Assembly (NCBI RefSeq): GCF_002159945.1
Contig: NZ_NFJQ01000007.1
Coordinates: forward strand, 62,001-126,000
Origin: Cloacibacillus sp. An23
GTDB lineage: Bacteria > Synergistota > Synergistia > Synergistales > Synergistaceae
DNA: 64,000 nt
Direction of reading: 5' to 3'
Position 1 is the stretch's first letter. Every line of letters begins with the position of its first letter. The notes beneath the pieces were generated by a model. It did no database searches. It was not told the DNA's origin and saw nothing but the letters and a program-made list of their open reading frames with translations. Positions 48,761-59,108 of this stretch are shown piece after piece. The position numbers and the translations under genes are program-made.

Positions 48761-48788
48761 TTGACAAAAGATAAAAAGGCGATAGACT
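48761..48788 (+). promoter_or_regulatory. promoter of the corrinoid-uptake operon
   Basis: TTGACA, 16 bases, TAGACT; transcription would start near 48795, just ahead of the riboswitch. Confidence 0.65.
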
Positions 48789-48827
48789 GAGAGCCGGCGC
48801 GGCTGCTGTCAAATGCCAGTTTGCAGC

Positions 48828-49025
48828 GTTGCGTGCCTGTTTCCTTTGGAGATAGGAATTTTATATAGCGTCCGCGGAGTAGGGAATTCGGTAAAAAGCC
48901 GAAGCGGCCCCTGCCACCGTAATCGGGACGAAACCGCATTCGCCATTGCGTTTTTTGCGAGAAGGCGCGGGAGTAGGATGAACGAGAGCCGGGAGACCTG
49001 CCGCGGAGCGTTTGAGGCTTCAATG
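48828..49025 (+). promoter_or_regulatory. cobalamin riboswitch
   Basis: RNA aptamer for adenosylcobalamin-type corrinoids. Conserved blocks are seen in order: GTGCCTG at the 5' side, GGGAATTCGGT, AAGCCGAAGCGGCCCCTGCCACCGTAA for the core (in parts), GGGAGTAGGATGAACG, and the B12 box GAGCCGGGAGACCTGCC at 48986-49002. It lies in the leader of a TonB-dependent receptor gene and should repress the whole uptake operon when corrinoid is plentiful. Confidence 0.9.
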
Positions 49026-49121
49026 CGCAGAGGGCGCATAACGGCGGCTTTGCGTGAATTGACGAGCGGGAAGCGCCTTGCGTTCTCCCGCTTAAAATTT
49101 ACGGTACAGGAGGTCGCCGTT

Positions 49122-51131
49122 TTGAAGTTGAAGGTTTCGCATATTCTGTTAGTAACCACAATGATGATGTTGCTGACAGCATCTCCCCCATTAGAATATA
49201 AACTTTTTGTAATTAAAGCGCACGCGTCCGAAAAGACTATCGATCTGCCGAAAGAAGAAATCAGCGGAAGCGCCGTCGAGGACGATAAGCTTATGCTGTC
49301 GCCCGGGTCGGTTACCGTTATACGTCCTCAGGAAATGAAGGGCGAACAAAAAAATCTTCCCGAATTGCTTAAGCAGGTTCCCGGGCTTCATGTGATAGAA
49401 CTGAAAGGACGCGGGGCTTATACCACCGCTTCGGTCCGCGGGAGTACATCGTCTCAGGTTTCCGTGTACGTTGACGGCGTGCTGATGAATTTAGGCAGCG
49501 AAGCAGCCGTAGACCTTTCCGCCATACCTGTAGAAAACGTAGAGAAAATAGAGGTCTACAGAGGATATATCCCCGCGAGGTTCGGCGGCGCTTCGATGGG
49601 CGGCGTCATCAATATCGTTACTTTGAAGCCTGAAGAAGCGGGCGGATCTCTCAGCGCAGGGATAGGTTCATACGGGCGCTTCCGCGGCGGCTTCACTTAC
49701 AATATGCCGCTTGGAGGCGGCGCCATGCTGGCCTCAGCGAATTATGAGCGCAGCGACGGCGATTTCGACTATTGGAACGACAACAATACGCCGTATACGC
49801 CGACCGACGATTACAAAGCCGATAGGCGGAATAACGGGTATAAGAATTCAGACGTTCTGGTCAAGTGGAGCGACGACGACTGGACTGTGGAAGGCGGATG
49901 GAAACGCAGCGACAGAGAGCTGCCGTACGCCGCGCCCGGGGCGGATAAGCCGAACAGCCCGCCAGGCGCGCGTCAGGTCGTAGACCAGTGGAACGCCGTC
50001 GTTTCAAGGAGAGGCGAGCTCGGCGATCTCAGCTATGGAGTACGTTTCGAATACCTGTATCAAACCAAAGAATACGACGACCCGGAAAACATGCTCGGCG
50101 GCTGGGGCGACCAGCACAATAAATATGAGACGCGCCGCTTCGGCGCGGCTTTTGACGGGGCGCTTCCGCTCGGCGAGCGCCATATGCTTGAATTCCTCTG
50201 GAATTATTATAACGAAGAGCTTCATACGAAAGGCGACGTCGTCGCTCTCGGCGGAAGAGAACGCCATACGCGCGATACATGGAACGGACAGCTGCAGGAT
50301 ACCGTCAGCCTTAATAAAAGCGGCGACTTCTGGCTCACTCCTATCGTCAGATGGAATTCCGCCGAGGGAGAAAGCAAATTTTCGTGGGGGGCCGCTCTGA
50401 CGAAGCGGCTTCCGAACGGCTGGACGGTCAAGCTGACCGGCGGGACGTACAACAGGGCTCCCAATATGTACGAACTCTATGGCGACGGGGCGTTCGTCGT
50501 CGCCAGCGAAAGTCTTGAGTGGGAAGAGGGCCGTCAGTACGACGTATCAGTCGCGTGGAAGGGCAATGTCGCCGAGGCCGACGTCACGGCCGAACTGACC
50601 TATTTTTACAGGAAGTCCGAAAATCTTATCGACTACATCATGACCAATCCGCGCTACGCGCAGTACAGGAACATCGGCGAAGCGGAAGTCTCCGGCCTCG
50701 AGCTGGAAGCGACGGTGAAGCACGGCAGATGGGACGCTTATTTGTCGGCGACATACATGGAGGCGAAGAACAAAACCCCTGGCTACATGTATGACTCGCC
50801 TCTGCCGAACCGTCCGAAGTGGGAGGCGCTTCTGCGCGTCGGCAGAAAGATACTGAAAGAAGACAGAGGAACGATATTCGCCGAGCTGCGGCATATAGGA
50901 GAGAATTATTACGACATGCGGGGCGAAGTCGGGTGGGACGACCTGACTACATTCGGCCTCGGTTTCAAATATCAGATAACCGATACTCTAAAGCTTGTAG
51001 CCGGAGTCGACGATCTGTTCGACGCAGGGTCGGACGTGCTGCTTTTCGCGACCGGAAACGGCCCGGAGAGGACGCTCTGGTATCCGATTCAGGGGCGCAC
51101 CTTCTACGCGACTCTGATCTGGACGTTCTAA
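49122..51131 (+). CDS. btuB: TonB-dependent corrinoid receptor (BtuB-like)
   Basis: Outer-membrane receptor that imports corrinoids using TonB energy (669 residues). It has a signal peptide to about KAHAS, a plug domain (PELLKQVPGLHVIELKG, SVRGSTSSQVSVYVDGVL, IPARFGGASMGGVINIV), then a 22-strand-type barrel ending in aromatic Phe (RTFYATLIWTF). Start is TTG 49122, eight bases after AGGAGG; the in-frame region upstream is riboswitch. Riboswitch control and the downstream BtuFDC and CbiR-like genes make corrinoid the substrate with good confidence. Confidence 0.9.
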   Translation: MKLKVSHILLVTTMMMLLTASPPLEYKLFVIKAHASEKTIDLPKEEISGSAVEDDKLMLSPGSVTVIRPQEMKGEQKNLPELLKQVPGLHVIELKGRGAYTTASVRGSTSSQVSVYVDGVLMNLGSEAAVDLSAIPVENVEKIEVYRGYIPARFGGASMGGVINIVTLKPEEAGGSLSAGIGSYGRFRGGFTYNMPLGGGAMLASANYERSDGDFDYWNDNNTPYTPTDDYKADRRNNGYKNSDVLVKWSDDDWTVEGGWKRSDRELPYAAPGADKPNSPPGARQVVDQWNAVVSRRGELGDLSYGVRFEYLYQTKEYDDPENMLGGWGDQHNKYETRRFGAAFDGALPLGERHMLEFLWNYYNEELHTKGDVVALGGRERHTRDTWNGQLQDTVSLNKSGDFWLTPIVRWNSAEGESKFSWGAALTKRLPNGWTVKLTGGTYNRAPNMYELYGDGAFVVASESLEWEEGRQYDVSVAWKGNVAEADVTAELTYFYRKSENLIDYIMTNPRYAQYRNIGEAEVSGLELEATVKHGRWDAYLSATYMEAKNKTPGYMYDSPLPNRPKWEALLRVGRKILKEDRGTIFAELRHIGENYYDMRGEVGWDDLTTFGLGFKYQITDTLKLVAGVDDLFDAGSDVLLFATGNGPERTLWYPIQGRTFYATLIWTF

Positions 51132-51250
51132 CCGTTTCACCACGGTTTTGCAGGGTGGTGGTCGTCGGGCGTAATGTTTTTTTTGCCGTCAACGCGAGGT
51201 TTTTTGTAAACAGCCGGACTATTTGCCATGTTAGGAAAGGATGATGAAAG

Positions 51251-53761
51251 ATGAAGCGCAGGATTTACACGGCATTTATATTTACGCTGCTCACGGCGTT
51301 CTGCCTTGTTTCCGCCGCGTCGGCGGATCTGCTTTATACGAGACAGGATCAGAGCTACTCAAACACGGCGCTCGGGATAATACAGGGAGACGGCTCGCCT
51401 GTCAGTCCGCTGGTAAGCAATATGGGCGGAAACGCCGGACAGGGCATATACCAGTTTGTGAACGGAAGCGGAGAATCCAAGATAGCGGTTTCTCTGTATA
51501 CGATGGGAGGAGCGGGCGACGTCGTCGATATATACAGCCCGGATGACGCAAATTGGGGCAGCTCATCCGCATGGTCATCTCCTACGGAAGTGACCACGTC
51601 GCTTGCAAATATCCGCAGGATCGTTTCTTTGGGGAATTATCTTTACGGCATAGCCTACGACAATTATTCCGTGAACAGGATATCCGCTGCGGACGGCGGC
51701 TATAAGGAGGACAAGACATACAAATATACGGAATCTGGAAAAGACACTCACGGCGAAGCCCTCGTCGCTTATAACGGCAAGCTGTACGCGATTTTCTCAG
51801 TATCGTCAGGCAACGTATGGGCCGGCGGCGCTTATTCGGCAAATAAGCTCGTCAGGTTCGACTCTGAGCTCAACGCCGAACAAACGGTCGAGATGCACGG
51901 CAAAAATCTCGACGGCGGCTCGGAAGGCGCGTATACGCTTTCCGGCAATAAGCTGTACGTAGCGACGCTCGGCGGCGTGCAGCAGTTTGATACGAACTGG
52001 AATCCCGAATCAAGCATAGAAATCGTGAACCTCGACGATATGTCGGTAACCCGGCCGGTGACCGCCCAGGCGATGAACGATAAGGATTCCACTTTCAAGC
52101 ATATGTTTAAGGCCGTCGTAGTCGCCGGCGACAAGGTGTACGTACAGGCTGCGAGATGGTCGTCGGAGGATGCGTATAAACCCGGGTACAGCGTCCGTAT
52201 TTACGAGACTACCGAGAGCGCTCTCGCCTCAGGAAATTTAGGCAAGGTCGTCAAGGAGTTTACGGGGGATACGGGGTGGAAATCGTCTCTGCTCTACGAC
52301 GCCGAGACAAAAGCCCTTTGGTGCGGCATCGGCTACGACCTCTGGCGTTACGACGGCGGCACATGGAAGCAGTACAATCAGGACTCGCTCGGCGGAATCA
52401 TAAGCGCTTTCGCCGCAATCACAAAGGAACCGCGATGGGCGAATTTTGCCGACACGTCGTGGTATGACGGCGAAGATGCGGCGTCCGGAACCCAAGACGA
52501 CCCGTATGTGATTGAGACCGCGGAACATCTGGCAGGGCTCGCGAAGCTTGTAAAAGACAGGGAGTCCACATTTGAGGGCAAATTCTTCGTCCTTGACGCG
52601 GATATAGACCTGCAGAACAGGGAATGGCTCCCGATCGGCTGGTTTATGAGCAACGCGAACAACTACGGCTTCGCCGGAGATTTCGACGGCAGGGGACACA
52701 GCGTCAAGGGACTTCTTGTAACTAAGGTGTCAAATGCCGGCGGTGAAAGCGATATGCAGTCCGAATGCCCGGCGCTCTTCGGTTATCTCGCGCCTGACGG
52801 AAGCGTCAGAAACCTTTATGCGGAGGGCGTCGTAAAAGGCAACAAGGCACAGGGCGCCGCCGTCCTCGTCACATGGAACACCGGGACGATCGACAACTGC
52901 GTCGTCTCCGGAGACGTCACGGCGGAGGGTTCGACCAGCCCGGCGCGTTCTTACGCAGGCGGAATATCCGGCGTCGCCGACGGCGGAGTCATCAGCAACT
53001 GCGTGTCGTACGGACGCTACACCGCGGAAACCGGCTGGAGCTACTCAGGCGGGTTCGTAGGCTATGCGTCGCAGGCGGCTACGTCCACGTTCCTTAACTG
53101 CGTCGGACTCGCGGAAAAGGCAAAAACCGGCATTTGTTCCGGCATGATCGGCGCTAAGGCCGAAAACTGCTACTACCTCAAGGGCGACGGAAGCGACGAG
53201 AGACCGACGGCGCCCGGAACGGCCCGCACGGCCGCCGGAATATCCTCCGAATCAGAAGCGCCCGTTTCTGCGGTGCTCTTCGACCCGGCGTCGATGAAGA
53301 ACGCCGGCACGGCAGGCGAAAACTATACCGTGCGGCTCGCGGCTTATCCGCTGCTTTCGCCTACCGACGGAATGCGGTGCGTATGGAGCTTCGACGATGC
53401 CGACGTACAGGTTGTGTCGGCCGAGGGGCTTTCCGCGACGATAAATTCAACAGCGGCCGGGGAGAAATATTTTACGGTAAGCGTAACCGGTATCAACGGC
53501 ATCGAAGCCGATGATGCCGAAAACGCGATCGTACTGCGCGGCAAAATACAGATAAACGAGAAACCTCCGGTCGCAGAGCCGGACCCGGACGATCCGGACA
53601 CCGAAGATATGGGCCCGGGCTCTGATCCTGAACCGGCTCCTGATCCCGCGCCTGCACAGGGCGGCGGCGGTGGCGGCGGCGGATGCAACGGCGGGTTTGG
53701 CGGAATCGCCTTGCTTGCGTTGGCTTTCGTACCGGCCGTAATAAGGCGGATCGGAAAATAA
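51251..53761 (+). CDS. large surface protein: repeat (propeller-like) + GLUG motifs + Synerg-CTERM
   Basis: Secreted protein of 836 residues. It has a signal peptide (FTLLTAFCLVSAASA). Residues ~30-390 contain repeated short blocks of the type LYxI/LYVA..D..., suggesting a beta-propeller: NYLYGIAYDNYSVNRIS, GKLYAIFSVSSG, GNKLYVATLGGVQQFD, KALWCGIGYDLWRYDGG. Residues ~400-640 carry GLUG-type beta-helix motifs (FAGDFDGRGHSVKGL, GTIDNCVVSGDV, GVISNCVSYGRY). An Ig-like segment and an Asp/Pro linker follow. The end GGGGCNGGFGGIALLALAF...RRIGK fits Synerg-CTERM, a surface-anchoring signal. It sits between the receptor and btuF under the riboswitch, so a corrinoid-capturing surface role, analogous to Bacteroides BtuG, is proposed. 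Confidence 0.8.
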   Translation: MKRRIYTAFIFTLLTAFCLVSAASADLLYTRQDQSYSNTALGIIQGDGSPVSPLVSNMGGNAGQGIYQFVNGSGESKIAVSLYTMGGAGDVVDIYSPDDANWGSSSAWSSPTEVTTSLANIRRIVSLGNYLYGIAYDNYSVNRISAADGGYKEDKTYKYTESGKDTHGEALVAYNGKLYAIFSVSSGNVWAGGAYSANKLVRFDSELNAEQTVEMHGKNLDGGSEGAYTLSGNKLYVATLGGVQQFDTNWNPESSIEIVNLDDMSVTRPVTAQAMNDKDSTFKHMFKAVVVAGDKVYVQAARWSSEDAYKPGYSVRIYETTESALASGNLGKVVKEFTGDTGWKSSLLYDAETKALWCGIGYDLWRYDGGTWKQYNQDSLGGIISAFAAITKEPRWANFADTSWYDGEDAASGTQDDPYVIETAEHLAGLAKLVKDRESTFEGKFFVLDADIDLQNREWLPIGWFMSNANNYGFAGDFDGRGHSVKGLLVTKVSNAGGESDMQSECPALFGYLAPDGSVRNLYAEGVVKGNKAQGAAVLVTWNTGTIDNCVVSGDVTAEGSTSPARSYAGGISGVADGGVISNCVSYGRYTAETGWSYSGGFVGYASQAATSTFLNCVGLAEKAKTGICSGMIGAKAENCYYLKGDGSDERPTAPGTARTAAGISSESEAPVSAVLFDPASMKNAGTAGENYTVRLAAYPLLSPTDGMRCVWSFDDADVQVVSAEGLSATINSTAAGEKYFTVSVTGINGIEADDAENAIVLRGKIQINEKPPVAEPDPDDPDTEDMGPGSDPEPAPDPAPAQGGGGGGGGCNGGFGGIALLALAFVPAVIRRIGK

Positions 53762-53897
53762 CGGGCGCGGTACATAGATAAACGTACGGCGCAGGCCGTC
53801 CGCGGCGAACGATTTTACGGCCGCTCGCCGCGGACGGCCCTTTACGAATACAGCAGTCCGTTCTTTTTTAGATTTAGGAGGGTTAGGAGGAAGCGCC

Positions 53898-54803
53898 GTG
53901 TCCGGCAAGCCGGTAAAAATTATTGCGCTTTTATTATTGTTCGTCGCGTTTTTATTATCTTCTCCCGTTTTGGCGGCCCCGCGCAGAATCGTCTCGCTGA
54001 GCCCCGTCGGGACGGAGATTTTGTATATGCTGAATCAGGGGGGCAATGTAGTCGGAGTAACCGATTTCTGCGACTATCCGCCCGAGGCCCGGCGGGTTCC
54101 GAAAGTCGGAGGCTTTACCGGCATATCGCTGGAAAATCTGATTTCGATGACGCCAGATCTCGTCGTTCTTCAGGATATACACGAGGAGCTCGCCTCAAAA
54201 CTATCCGGGCTGGGCGTCCCTTACGTCATGGCCAAGCAGGAAAGCGTCGAAGACGTTTATCGGTCGATACTCGCCGTAGGCGCGGCATGTTCCGCCGGCG
54301 AGCTTGCGGAGCGGCGCGCGGCAGATATCAAATCGTCGATCGCCTTAATCGCCGAAAAAACGGCGTCTTTGCCGAAGCGAAGCGTCCTTCTCTGTGTTTC
54401 CCGCGAGCCCGGCGAGCCGCGGATATCCGCTTTTTTCGCCGCGGGAGGCAAGACTTTCTATGACGAGCTGATTGCTCTTGCCGGAGGCGAGAACGTTCTG
54501 AAAAACGCTTCAGCCGCGTATCCGAAGATATCGGCCGAGGGGCTTGTGTCTCTGGACCCGGAGGTCGTTATCGATTTGGCCGGGGATGGCGCATATTATC
54601 ATTCTTCGGGGAATATCGACAGGGACGCCTTGTTCGCGGAGGAGCGGCTGCGCGGGCAGTGGCTCTCTGGGCCGAAGGTGCGCGCGGTGCGCGGCGGGCG
54701 CGTCTCCGTCCTGTGCGGCACGGTATATCTGCGCCCGGGGCCGCGCATTCCGGAGATTCTAAAGGCTTTCGCCGCGGCGATACACCCGGAGGCGGAGCTG
54801 TGA
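53898..54803 (+). CDS. btuF: corrinoid ABC transporter substrate-binding protein (BtuF)
   Basis: Periplasmic helical-backbone binding protein (301 residues) that hands corrinoid to the BtuCD importer. It has a signal peptide (IIALLLLFVAFLLSSPVLA), then RRIVSLSPVGTEILYML, the cobalamin-type VTDFCDYPPEA motif, and VGGFTGISLENLISMTPDLVV. GTG start after AGGAGG. Its stop overlaps the ATPase start by four bases. Haem or siderophore binding is possible by family, but the DYPPEA motif and riboswitch favour corrinoid. Confidence 0.9.
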   Translation: MSGKPVKIIALLLLFVAFLLSSPVLAAPRRIVSLSPVGTEILYMLNQGGNVVGVTDFCDYPPEARRVPKVGGFTGISLENLISMTPDLVVLQDIHEELASKLSGLGVPYVMAKQESVEDVYRSILAVGAACSAGELAERRAADIKSSIALIAEKTASLPKRSVLLCVSREPGEPRISAFFAAGGKTFYDELIALAGGENVLKNASAAYPKISAEGLVSLDPEVVIDLAGDGAYYHSSGNIDRDALFAEERLRGQWLSGPKVRAVRGGRVSVLCGTVYLRPGPRIPEILKAFAAAIHPEAEL

Positions 54804-55591
54804 GCGCCGCGAAGGCGGTAGACATCCGCGGCCTTTCTCTGTCGCTGGGAGGCGTGAGCGTTCTTAAGGACGTCTCCTGCTCTGTGGAGGCGGGGCGCTT
54901 TCTCGCCGTCCTCGGCCCCAACGGGGCCGGCAAGAGCACGCTGCTCAAGTGCGCGGGCGGGCTTGTGCGCGGGTGGAGCGGCGAGGCGCGGATTTTCGGC
55001 GAGCCGGTCGCCGCGATGACGCCGCGTGCCGTCGCCCGCCGCGTCGCTTGGGTGCATCAGGGGGGCGGCGAGGGGCTGCGTTACACGGTGCGCCAGTTCG
55101 TCTCGATGTCGCGCTTCGCGCTGCGTCCCGTCCTCGGAGGCGAGTCGGCCGCGGACCGCGCGGCGGTCGATGCGGCGCTTGAGACGGCGGGGGCGGCCCG
55201 GTTCGCGAAGCGGCGGCTCGCGGCTCTCTCGGGCGGCGAGCGCCAGCGCGCTTTTATAGCCGCGGCTCTCGCTCAGGAGACGGATATTCTTTTTCTTGAC
55301 GAGCCGACGAGCTTTCTCGACTACCGCGGGCAGGCGGAGGCTCTCGCGCTGGTGGAGCGCCTCAACAGAGACGGCGGCAAGACGGTAGTTATGGTGACGC
55401 ACGACGTGAATATCGCGCTGCGCTGCGCCGACGAGGCGCTCGCGATGAAGGACGGGCGCTCCGTGTGGCAGGGCAGCCCGCGCGAGCTGACGCGGGGCGG
55501 GCTGCTGCGCGAGCTTTTCGGCGTGGAGTTCGAGCTTTTCAGCGGCGCGGACGGGTCGCCTTACGCCTTCCTGACTGGGCCCGCGCGATGA
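54800..55591 (+). CDS. btuD: corrinoid ABC transporter ATP-binding protein (BtuD)
   Basis: ABC ATPase (263 residues) of the FecE/BtuD group. Walker A LGPNGAGKSTLLK, signature LSGGERQRAFIAAALAQ, Walker B ILFLDEPTSFLD, and a His switch in VTHDVN. GTG start at 54800 overlaps the btuF stop (GTGA); the longer frame to 54659 lies within btuF. Its own stop overlaps btuC (ATGA). Confidence 0.92.
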   Translation: MSAAKAVDIRGLSLSLGGVSVLKDVSCSVEAGRFLAVLGPNGAGKSTLLKCAGGLVRGWSGEARIFGEPVAAMTPRAVARRVAWVHQGGGEGLRYTVRQFVSMSRFALRPVLGGESAADRAAVDAALETAGAARFAKRRLAALSGGERQRAFIAAALAQETDILFLDEPTSFLDYRGQAEALALVERLNRDGGKTVVMVTHDVNIALRCADEALAMKDGRSVWQGSPRELTRGGLLRELFGVEFELFSGADGSPYAFLTGPAR

Positions 55592-56565
55592 GGGGGCGGC
55601 TTTTCGCGGCGGCTCTGCTGTCGCTCGCGGCTCTTTGCGCCGCTCCGTTCTTCGGCGCGGCGGCGGTGGATTTTCACGACGTTTTCGAGGCCGGGACGCC
55701 ATCCTGCCGTATCTTCTGGGAGATGCGCGTGCCGCGCGTCCTGCTCGCGTGGCTGACGGGTGCGACGCTTTCGGTCTGCGGGCTTATTTTTCAGGCGCTT
55801 TTCAGAAATTCGCTGGCTTCGCCCGATATGCTCGGCGTTTCGTCGGGCGCGGCGCTCGGCGCTGTTTTGTATATACGTCTCGGCTTCGCCTCGGCTTTCC
55901 TCGGTGTCATCGGCGGCGGGGCGTGCGCGGCCTTCCTCGGGGCCTGCGCCGCGGTTGCGGTGCTCTGCGCCGCCGGGAGTCTCAAGCGCGGCGGGTTTTC
56001 CGCCTCCTCGCTGCTGCTCGCGGGCGTCGCGCTGAATTTCCTCTGCGGCAGCCTCAATATGATAGTCCAGTACACGGGCGGCTATACCGATTCTTTCCGT
56101 ATGATGCGGTGGAGTATGGGCGGGCTGGACGCGATAGGGCCCGGCGCGCCGCTCGCGTCGCTGCCTGCGTTTATTTTCGTCGCTCTAGCGGGCTGGGCCG
56201 CCGGCCCGCAGCTCGACCTGCTCGTCTGCGGCGAGGAGCTCGCGGCGAGCCGCGGCGTTTCCGTGCGGGCGCTGCGCCGTTTTCTGTTTTTCGCCGTTTC
56301 GCTCGCCGTCGGCGTCAACGTCGCGCTCTGCGGCCCTATCGGCTTCGTTGGGCTGATGTGCCCGCATATCTGCCGCCGTCTGACTGGGTGGGCCGGGCAC
56401 CGAAGCCTCTCCGTCCTCTGCGTTTTCGCGGGGGGGCTGTTCCTCGTGCTATGCGACGCCGCCGCGAGGACCCTATGGGCTCCGGCGGAGCTGCCTGCCG
56501 GCATCATTACTTCGTCGGCGGGAGCACTGTTTTTTATACGGCTTGTGATAAAGGAGGCTGATTAG
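55588..56565 (+). CDS. btuC: corrinoid ABC transporter permease (BtuC)
   Basis: FecCD/BtuC-type permease (325 residues, about ten helices). PRVLLAWLTGATLSVCGLIFQALFRNSLASPDMLG (in parts) and GPIGFVGLMCPHICRRLTG are family hallmarks. ATG 55588 overlaps the btuD stop; the longer frame to 55465 lies within btuD. It is followed immediately, with no gap, by the CbiR-like gene. Confidence 0.92.
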   Translation: MRGRLFAAALLSLAALCAAPFFGAAAVDFHDVFEAGTPSCRIFWEMRVPRVLLAWLTGATLSVCGLIFQALFRNSLASPDMLGVSSGAALGAVLYIRLGFASAFLGVIGGGACAAFLGACAAVAVLCAAGSLKRGGFSASSLLLAGVALNFLCGSLNMIVQYTGGYTDSFRMMRWSMGGLDAIGPGAPLASLPAFIFVALAGWAAGPQLDLLVCGEELAASRGVSVRALRRFLFFAVSLAVGVNVALCGPIGFVGLMCPHICRRLTGWAGHRSLSVLCVFAGGLFLVLCDAAARTLWAPAELPAGIITSSAGALFFIRLVIKEAD

Positions 56566-57375
56566 ATGGCGCGGCTCGGATTTCCCGGAGTTTCCCTAGG
56601 CGGCGTTTCGTGGGTGGTGTGCGGCGGCTTCGCCGAGAATATGCGCGTCCTTTCGCGTGACGTCGATGATATGCAGTTTGTGCTTTTCGACAACGCTTAC
56701 GGCTCGAACATCCCGACGAAGGACGAGGTGCGGGCGCTCGCCGAGCTGCGGCGCGAGCTCAGGATGAGCTGCACCGTGCATTTTCCCGAGAACGTCTGCA
56801 TGTCGCTTGACGTGTCCGAGAGACGGCGATGTGAGGATTCATGTCTGAGGACGATGGGGCTTTTCGACGAACTTGAGCCTTACGCCTACGTGCTGCACCT
56901 CTGCGGCGAACGGTACGGAAAGCGCCCGAGCGCCGATATGGAGCGCTGGCGCGAGCTGACCGTCCGTTCCGCAGAACGCATCGCAGGAGCCGCGCGCGAC
57001 AGAAAGCTTATCTGCACAGAAACTCTCGACTTTGATTTCGACTATATTTGGCCGATTGTCAACGAGGTCGGAATTTCTGCCTGTATAGACATAGGACACC
57101 TCGTGATGTACGGCTATCCCGTCGAGGAACGGCTGAGGAAATATCTCAGCGCGGCGCGGGTGCTGCACATACACGGCGTGAGGCCCGACGGGACCGACCA
57201 CAGCGCCATGACTTATTTCGACAAAGGGCTTTTGTTTAGAGTCCTCGATATTCTCGCCTCCGACGGGCGCCGCCGCGTTATGACGATCGAAGTCTTTGAG
57301 GAGGACTACGGCCTGTCTGTAGATTTTTTGAGAAAATTCGCCCGCGAACGGGCAGAGGGGGATTTACATGCTTGA
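56566..57375 (+). CDS. cbiR: CbiR-like cobamide-remodelling phosphodiesterase
   Basis: TIM-barrel protein of the xylose-isomerase/AP-endonuclease-2 fold (269 residues). Likely metal ligands are seen in TVHFPE, YVLHLCGE, ICTETLDFDF, SACIDIGHLVMYGY, LHIHGVRPDGTDHS and MTIEVFE. CbiR, described from Akkermansia, is a member of this fold that hydrolyses cobamides to cobinamide phosphate so that the lower base can be exchanged. Location between btuC and exbB under a cobalamin riboswitch makes this role likely. A generic sugar isomerase is the fall-back. No other remodelling genes are in the window. Confidence 0.78.
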   Translation: MARLGFPGVSLGGVSWVVCGGFAENMRVLSRDVDDMQFVLFDNAYGSNIPTKDEVRALAELRRELRMSCTVHFPENVCMSLDVSERRRCEDSCLRTMGLFDELEPYAYVLHLCGERYGKRPSADMERWRELTVRSAERIAGAARDRKLICTETLDFDFDYIWPIVNEVGISACIDIGHLVMYGYPVEERLRKYLSAARVLHIHGVRPDGTDHSAMTYFDKGLLFRVLDILASDGRRRVMTIEVFEEDYGLSVDFLRKFARERAEGDLHA

Positions 57376-57967
57376 TTATATGAATGAAGGCGGAAGCATT
57401 ATGTGGGCGATCGCGGCTCTGTCCGCAGCGGCGCTCGCCGTAACGATAGAGCGGCTGATGTTTTTCCGCAAAGCCTCGGGAGACGCGGAGAATCTCGAGC
57501 GCGTCTTCGCCTCCGCCGTCAGCGGCGGGCACGGCAGAGGCGAACTTCAGTCCTCGCCCGCGTCGCTTTCGCGCCTTTTCTCCGACGCCCTTTCGCAGTG
57601 GGAGGCCGGGCGCGAAGACATGAAACTGCTCACCGAGGAGAGCGTCAGGCGCGAGATATACAGATGGGAGCGTCATCTGTTCGTCCTTGAGATTGTCGGC
57701 AAGCTCGCGCCGATGCTCGGCCTGCTCGGTACGGTGCTCGGCATGGTGGAGATGTTCGGCTCGCTGCACATGGGAGGGCAGATAAGCGCCGAAGCCGTGA
57801 CGGGCGGCATCTGGAAGGCGCTTTACACGACGGTCGCGGGGCTTTCCGTCGCGATTCCCGTCATCTTCGTCAACGGCCTGCTCAATTCCAGAATAGACGG
57901 CGAGGAGGAGAAGCTGCGGCGCGGCGCAGACTGGGTGATGCGTCTGCACAGGAAGCGCGGAGCATGA
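57368..57967 (+). CDS. exbB: ExbB/MotA/TolQ family proton channel subunit
   Basis: Inner-membrane energiser subunit (199 residues, three helices). N-terminal GGSIMWAIAALSAAALAVTIERL, then the conserved core LAPMLGLLGTVLGMVEMFGSL and TTVAGLSVAIPVIFVNGLL. With ExbD it converts the proton gradient into movement of TonB. It overlaps the CbiR-like gene by eight bases and exbD by four. Confidence 0.92.
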   Translation: MLDYMNEGGSIMWAIAALSAAALAVTIERLMFFRKASGDAENLERVFASAVSGGHGRGELQSSPASLSRLFSDALSQWEAGREDMKLLTEESVRREIYRWERHLFVLEIVGKLAPMLGLLGTVLGMVEMFGSLHMGGQISAEAVTGGIWKALYTTVAGLSVAIPVIFVNGLLNSRIDGEEEKLRRGADWVMRLHRKRGA

Positions 57968-58350
57968 GAAGGAATGGAAGGCGCGGCGTCGATATAGACA
58001 TAACGCCGCTTATCGACGTTCTTTTTATGCTGATTATATTCTTCGTCCTTACCACTTCGTTCGTACAGGGCAAACTAGACGTCGCGCTCCCGCGCGGCGA
58101 AGGCGGCTCGGCCGGCACGCGAGGGGCCGTCGTGCTGACCGTCGCCGCCGATAAAAGGCTCTACTGGGACGGGCGCGAGATAAGCAGGGACGAACTCTCC
58201 GCGGCCGCCGAGGCCGGCAAAGGGCGCGAAATACTGATAGCAGGGGACGAGGGCGTGCCCTACGGAGACGTGGCCTCGGTACTTTCGCTGCTGCGCGCCG
58301 GCGGCGTCGGCTCTGCGGGGCTGCTGATCTCCGGGGGCCGCGCCGAATGA
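57964..58350 (+). CDS. exbD: ExbD/TolR family protein
   Basis: Energiser subunit (128 residues): cytoplasmic GVDIDITPLIDVLFMLIIFF with the essential intramembrane Asp (PLIDVLF), then a periplasmic domain. ATGA overlaps on both sides couple it to exbB and tonB. Confidence 0.92.
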   Translation: MRRNGRRGVDIDITPLIDVLFMLIIFFVLTTSFVQGKLDVALPRGEGGSAGTRGAVVLTVAADKRLYWDGREISRDELSAAAEAGKGREILIAGDEGVPYGDVASVLSLLRAGGVGSAGLLISGGRAE

Positions 58351-59108
58351 GCGCGGATGAACGGGCGCGATGGAGGATAGCCGCGGCGCTGAGCCTCTGC
58401 CTGCATCTCGCGCTCCTTTTAGCGCCGAAAGCCGCGCCGGAACGCGTGCCGCGCGAGAAACCGGTTATGTCCGTGCGCCTCGTCGCTCTGCCTGGGCCGC
58501 GCAGCTCCGGCGGCGGAGGAGGCGGCGGAAGCCGCGCCGAAAGCCGGGCCGCCGCGCGCCCGCGTCCCGCCGCTCCCGAACGCGCGGCGGCGAAGCGGCC
58601 CGACCCTAAGCCAGAGCCGAGGATAAAGAAGACCGCCGCGGCCGCGAAGCCGAAAGAAACGGCGCCCGCCCCCGCGATAAAGAAAAGCGCCGCCGAACGC
58701 ACAGAAGAACCCGCGGCCGAGCCGAGGGCGACCGGCGGCGCGCCCGGCGAGGGATATGGCTCCGGCGGAGGCGGAACGGGCGGAGGCACTGGCTCCGGTA
58801 TAGGCCCGGGCGCGGGCTCCGGCTCGGGAGGGGGAAGCGGCGGCGGCATCGCAGACCTGTCCGAGCTGGAGGTGCTCAAAAAGGTAACGCCCGAATATCC
58901 GATCTTTTCACGCAAACGCCGCGAAGAGGGGACGGCGGTCGTGATAGCGCGCATAGAAAACGGCTACGTGACCTCGGCGGGGCTCGAAAGCTCAAGCGGC
59001 CACGCACGCCTCGACGCCTCCGCGCTGAAGGCGGTAATGGGCTGGAAATTCAACTGCGCTGGGATTGTCCGAGTGAGGATCCCCTTCGTGTTCCGTATAA
59101 AGGGCTGA
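58347..59108 (+). CDS. tonB: TonB family energy transducer
   Basis: TonB (253 residues). A single N-terminal anchor (AAALSLCLHLALLLAPKA) is followed by an Ala/Pro/Lys/Arg-rich periplasmic spacer with a Gly-Ser stretch, then a C-terminal TonB domain starting VTPEYPIFSRKRREEGTAVV. It contacts the TonB box of the receptor at 49122. Last gene of the corrinoid operon; having a dedicated TonB-ExbB-ExbD set in the operon suggests a private energiser. Confidence 0.9.
   Translation: MSADERARWRIAAALSLCLHLALLLAPKAAPERVPREKPVMSVRLVALPGPRSSGGGGGGGSRAESRAAARPRPAAPERAAAKRPDPKPEPRIKKTAAAAKPKETAPAPAIKKSAAERTEEPAAEPRATGGAPGEGYGSGGGGTGGGTGSGIGPGAGSGSGGGSGGGIADLSELEVLKKVTPEYPIFSRKRREEGTAVVIARIENGYVTSAGLESSSGHARLDASALKAVMGWKFNCAGIVRVRIPFVFRIKG

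Follow-up and report, generated by a model that had tools for sequence, protein, structure and literature searches.

A gene within a corrinoid-uptake block of Cloacibacillus sp. An23 encodes an 836-residue protein that, judged from sequence comparison and structural modelling, is likely to serve the BtuB-type receptor, whose gene lies just upstream, as a BtuG-like partner in corrinoid capture. BtuG captures corrinoid at the cell surface and passes it to BtuB (PMC10404256, PMC6143338), and it was reported in 2018 as exclusive to the Bacteroidetes (PMC6143338). Corrinoid binding at femtomolar affinity and a stable complex with BtuB are among its defining features. What appears to be new here is a differently anchored variant of BtuG in a phylum, the Synergistota, that lies beyond those stated confines. 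We found no literature joining BtuG or TonB-dependent corrinoid uptake with the Synergistota, although the search covered open-access papers only and is therefore weak evidence of absence. Positions given below refer to the window, which is the whole 64,000-nucleotide stretch of DNA that was analysed.

The block consists of nine genes, all on the + strand, headed by a cobalamin riboswitch. The riboswitch aptamer (48858..49019, + strand; RF00174, 87.3 bits against a cut-off of 31.5, E 3.6e-20) sits downstream of a promoter-like site at 48761..48788 (+ strand; TTGACA-16-TAGACT), whose score of 10/12 in a consensus scan is by itself no functional evidence. The BtuB-type TonB-dependent receptor (about 49128..51131; PF00593, PF07715) begins with a TTG start behind AGGAGG, and among NCBIfam models the B12 receptor TIGR01779 scores best, its 142 bits being far under the equivalog cut-off of 599.7. 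Next come the 836-residue surface protein (51251..53761), a BtuF-like periplasmic binding protein (53898..54803; PF01497; BtuF model at 100 bits, under its cut-off), a BtuD-like ABC ATPase (54800..55591; PF00005; top NCBIfam model a corrinoid ABC ATPase, 209.5 bits, under its cut-off) and a BtuC-like permease (55588..56565; PF01032, 263 bits; top NCBIfam model BtuC, under its cut-off). They are followed by the cobamide-remodelling phosphodiesterase CbiR (56566..57375), which at 197.2 bits is over the equivalog cut-off of 105 for NF041277, and by ExbB (57368..57967; PF01618), ExbD (57964..58350; PF02472) and TonB (58347..59108; PF03544, TIGR01352). Since the receptor, BtuF, BtuD and BtuC all fall below narrow equivalog cut-offs, their corrinoid role rests on domain content, gene context and the riboswitch together. 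From btuF onward there are no gaps between genes, each overlapping or abutting its successor: reading the junctions directly, we found overlaps in GTGA for btuF/btuD, in ATGA for btuD/btuC, and in GTGA or ATGA for exbB/exbD and exbD/tonB, an 8-base overlap for cbiR/exbB, and abutting btuC and cbiR genes (TAGATG). An earlier note on this DNA had described a riboswitch-headed rightward operon with overlaps joining most genes from btuF on, and both parts of that description hold.

Translation and comparison with homologues show the 836-residue protein to be made up of a signal peptide (ending in SAASA, directly ahead of DLLY), an N-terminal domain of about 350 residues, a GLUG-type region, a linker rich in D, E, P and G, and a GGGGC tail. 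A Pfam scan of the whole protein returned no model, Glug included, at E 0.01 or better, the propeller domain matched no family in Pfam or NCBIfam scans, and a search of the PDB with the single sequence gave nothing meaningful. The N-terminal ~350 mature residues constitute a family of their own that lacks a Pfam model. Many relatives are only about 440 residues long and consist of the propeller and tail without a GLUG region, so that fusion to a GLUG region is optional.

For the N-terminal domain (51326..52369, + strand; about residues 26-373), AlphaFold2 predicted a seven-bladed beta-propeller with a pTM of 0.82 and a mean pLDDT of 75, the blades being assigned by our own reading of the strand list from the model. 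The alignment supplied to AlphaFold2 held 3 sequences, because the related-locus search with a narrow alignment had yielded only Fretibacterium fastidiosum. With VIA-align, the first 11 listed rows were all BtuG1, BtuG2 or BtuG3 structures (Z 25.3-26.9), although the lead over other seven-bladed propellers was small (25.3 vs 25.2 for 1l0q, an archaeal S-layer YVTN propeller), and Foldseek placed BtuG2 at ranks 1-3. The propeller that the earlier note had read from repeated motifs is therefore borne out by the predicted fold and by the precedence of BtuG chains in both structural searches. Only about 15% of residues are identical to those of BtuG in the VIA-align structural alignment. The propeller domains have a median pI of 4.9, which fits the acidic binding face of BtuG (PMC10404256).

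Profile comparisons point in the same direction. A 40-member family profile searched against PDB sequences gave BtuG1 as its top match (E 3.6e-8), as did a 44-member profile to which more divergent members had been added (E 2.3e-11). With hhalign, the E-value against the plasmid-encoded BtuG1 of Bacteroides finegoldii went from 5.9e-7 for the 40-member profile to 6.5e-9 for the 44-member profile, the latter over 235 columns and with the blade register kept, while E. coli YncE and Pgl gave 0.012 and 0.075, respectively, with the 40-member profile. The best local HMMER match to BtuG1 was one blade out of register, whereas that of hhalign was in register; such blade shifts do occur with repeats. 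Kelch matches in both PDB profile searches were set aside as generic propeller similarity.

It might be argued that the propeller and BtuG have separate origins, the former having come from another propeller family and converged on the same role, a proposal that opposes the claim of homology only and is compatible with a capture function. In keeping with it are the low identity noted above and the results for the Pfam BtuG family DUF5074 (PF16819), which matches neither the 836-residue protein nor anything else in the Cloacibacillus sp. An23 genome and gave weak scores at most across the Synergistota, with no clear case of a Pfam-type BtuG. A PDB search with a deep-branching lipoprotein subfamily alone likewise did not find BtuG. 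However, the match to BtuG1 improves as divergent members are added and is far better than that to YncE or Pgl, and we regard independent recruitment as rather unlikely. By these measures remote homology to BtuG is a more likely origin for the propeller than independent invention. The protein had been proposed in the earlier note as an independently anchored counterpart of BtuG; this idea is supported with the amendment that the independent part is probably the anchor and not the propeller.

Compared with BtuG1, BtuG2 and BtuG3 of Bacteroides thetaiotaomicron (PMC6143338, PMC10404256), the 836-residue protein shares a seven-bladed propeller, here predicted, an acidic domain, remote sequence similarity, and a gene located beside that of a BtuB-type receptor under cobalamin riboswitches. 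It differs in belonging to another phylum, in lacking a DUF5074 match, and in carrying a Synerg-CTERM tail at the C-terminus where BtuG has an N-terminal lipobox. Given the agreement in fold, context and remote homology and the absence of both DUF5074 and the N-terminal lipobox, we refer to the protein as BtuG-like and not as BtuG. E. coli YncE is also a seven-bladed propeller encoded next to a TonB-dependent receptor gene, but its ligand context is different and the hhalign match to it is poor. In E. coli K-12 (L101:2964-6369), yncE adjoins pqqU, the gene for the PQQ TonB-dependent receptor, and propellers beside TonB receptors may be a wider theme.

The gene neighbourhood of the propeller was surveyed in 188 Synergistota genomes, and the family was found in 34 of these by single-sequence search and in 61 by the 40-member profile. 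BtuB-type receptor relatives occur in 60 of the genomes; both are present in 54, the propeller only in 7, the receptor only in 6 and neither in 121, counts that are uncorrected for kinship. For 62 of the 77 BtuB-type genes, a propeller gene lies less than 2 kb away on the same strand; the receptor comes first in 22 of these pairs and the propeller in 40. A cobalamin riboswitch lies upstream within 12 kb on the same strand for 37 of 53 propeller copies checked, where about 1% would be expected by chance, and 15 of 18 further divergent loci also have one, one of the other three (L106) stopping at a contig edge. The neighbourhood is not constant, however, as 30 of 92 propeller copies lack a nearby BtuB-type gene (many of them, but not all, close to contig ends), and neither a BtuB-type gene nor a riboswitch shares a contig with several copies in genome G157 or with one copy each in G160, G145 and G149. 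Proximity to cobalamin riboswitches, whose constancy the earlier note had put forward for a genomic survey, thus applies to most of the family but not to all of it. Of the outcomes that would have counted against the note, neither a non-propeller prediction for the N-terminal region nor a family lying mostly away from corrinoid genes was seen. Where a genome holds several propeller copies each with its own receptor copy, the propellers diverge alongside their receptors. Propeller and receptor distances are correlated (rho 0.78), but linked genes have a common history and the correlation is not taken to prove contact.

These distributions bear on the possibility that the protein has a general role as an adhesin or S-layer-like component of the surface and only happens to be encoded among corrinoid genes. 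Surface proteins often contain YVTN-type propellers and GLUG/PKD regions, Synerg-CTERM proteins abound (the Cloacibacillus sp. An23 genome has 14), the next structural match after BtuG is the archaeal S-layer propeller, and several G157 copies lie apart from BtuB and riboswitches. Against this, linkage to BtuB-type genes and riboswitches extends through many Synergistota families at a frequency far above chance, and paired propeller-receptor paralogues recur within genomes, so that we consider an adhesin or S-layer role very improbable. The BtuG-like fold combined with BtuB and riboswitch linkage across the Synergistota gives good support to the view of the 836-residue protein as a BtuG-like corrinoid-capture partner of BtuB. 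In G157, some of the propeller copies on contigs without a BtuB-type gene or riboswitch (L060, L068, L069 and L070) are within long fused Synerg-CTERM proteins, and a change of role is possible for the copies located away from BtuB.

Another question is how the protein would be held at the cell surface. It has a plain signal peptide, with no N-terminal lipobox or Bacteroidetes export signal, and a C-terminal cysteine tail (53672..53749, + strand) composed of GGGGC, a hydrophobic stretch and a basic end. The Synerg-CTERM model TIGR04564 matches residues 808-833, and the sorting tail recognized in the earlier note is supported by a score of 25.0 in the genome scan, above the cut-off of 22.5, but falls just short of it (22.3) when the protein is searched alone. 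The tail resembles the MYXO-CTERM tail (PMC11980579) in its conserved cysteine, hydrophobic stretch and basic end. MYXO-CTERM tails are processed by a protease of the CPBP kind, the myxosortase (PMC11980579); the Cloacibacillus sp. An23 genome encodes one CPBP-family protease, as well as two secretins, but nothing ties this protease to Synerg-CTERM. The CPBP protease was ruled out as a marker of Synerg-CTERM, as it also occurs in genomes largely without such tails and does not discriminate between the two groups.

One family, f11, offers a natural comparison. The BtuB-linked propellers of its four genomes (G001-G004) lack a C-terminal tail and begin with a lipoprotein-like signal (LLWGC, PLWGC or ALWGC), and among the homologues that we read, an N-terminal lipobox was found in those of these four genomes. 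The f11 propellers align with other family members in register (hhalign E 7e-21), and a riboswitch is present within the stretch fetched in three of the four genomes, the fourth locus being at a contig edge. Synerg-CTERM proteins number 0, 1, 0 and 0 in G001-G004 versus 8-44 in eight other Synergistota genomes. In this deep-branching family the propeller anchor seems to have been swapped, with an N-terminal lipobox in place of the Synerg-CTERM tail, and the simplest reading is that the tail and the lipobox share one job, that of outer-membrane anchoring. Such a swap on the same BtuB-linked propeller makes Synerg-CTERM function directly testable, the prediction being that the tail serves to anchor the protein to the outer membrane surface through a lipid.

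The GLUG-type region (52430..53575, + strand), which ends in an Ig/PKD-like domain, is less well defined. Its AlphaFold2 model has a pLDDT of 62 and is confident only at the Ig-like end, for which Foldseek gave weak matches only. The GLUG motifs claimed in the earlier note do not appear as a Pfam Glug match, but the region is homologous to a protein at locus L104 that does match Pfam Glug (2.6e-9). Nine of 11 GLUG relatives with E < 1e-30 lie downstream of cobalamin riboswitches; among 35 weaker relatives from these genomes the number is 6, some of them in the same clusters. BtuG1 is likewise a two-module protein, with a C-terminal domain matching chain 7biz, which we take to be BtuH, in the position of the GLUG/Ig-like module of the 836-residue protein. 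BtuH, described in PMC8941943, is a B12-binding protein. By analogy with the two-domain BtuG1, and given the riboswitch linkage of the GLUG subfamily, a possible role for the GLUG region is that of a second module for ligand binding or for spacing. A more far-reaching idea, which we advance only tentatively, is that the Synergistota have corrinoid-capture surface systems of their own, in which a C-terminal cysteine lipid is found on a BtuG-related propeller and the GLUG type forms a new class of surface domain that binds corrinoids; the GLUG module, whether fused, separate or alone, would then play the part of the BtuH-like domain of BtuG1. Two further arrangements were seen: in G170 (L104:3003-7738) a cobalamin riboswitch is followed by a single GLUG/PKD surface protein of 1,512 residues, which has a Synerg-CTERM-like end and is not accompanied by a receptor or any other gene of the corrinoid block, and in G137 the receptor and propeller come after three GLUG proteins.

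An alternative role for the propeller is that of a BtuB-associated surface protein that does not itself bind corrinoid and acts as a structural lid, a sensor or a binder of some carrier (e.g., a corrinoid-protein complex), leaving binding to the GLUG module or the receptor. The case for capture comes from linkage and fold, and sharing a propeller fold does not establish function; moreover, a GLUG protein of the same subfamily can stand alone under a cobalamin riboswitch. The nearest sequences and structures, on the other hand, are BtuG proteins solved with bound corrinoid, and many relatives consist of propeller and tail with no GLUG region, which leads us to view a non-binding propeller as improbable. 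If the propeller is indeed a capture domain, low corrinoid would lead the riboswitch to permit expression of the block, and the N-terminal propeller, held at the surface by the Synerg-CTERM tail in place of the N-terminal lipid of BtuG, would bind corrinoids on the outside, where it probably covers the receptor like a lid. The captured corrinoid would then pass to the receptor in the way that BtuG delivers it to BtuB, ExbB-ExbD-TonB would power import, BtuF-D-C would bring the corrinoid inside, and CbiR would start the remodelling of foreign cobamides. A phylum-wide BtuG-like partner of BtuB in the Synergistota points to propeller-assisted capture of corrinoids as a strategy that is older or has a wider distribution.

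No relatives of the propeller family were found in viral contigs. Among the Synergistota with propeller relatives is Fretibacterium fastidiosum (G039; L054, L089), in which four propeller paralogues are found in about 25 kb, with GLUG proteins interspersed, downstream of one receptor and one riboswitch. Between surface-protein genes of this corrinoid cluster lies a gene (L089:6354-6722) for a 122-residue protein starting MKIRMDFVTNSSSSSF, and beside it is one for a SPASM-domain radical SAM-like protein (L089:6737-7894); the two could be a peptide-modification pair.
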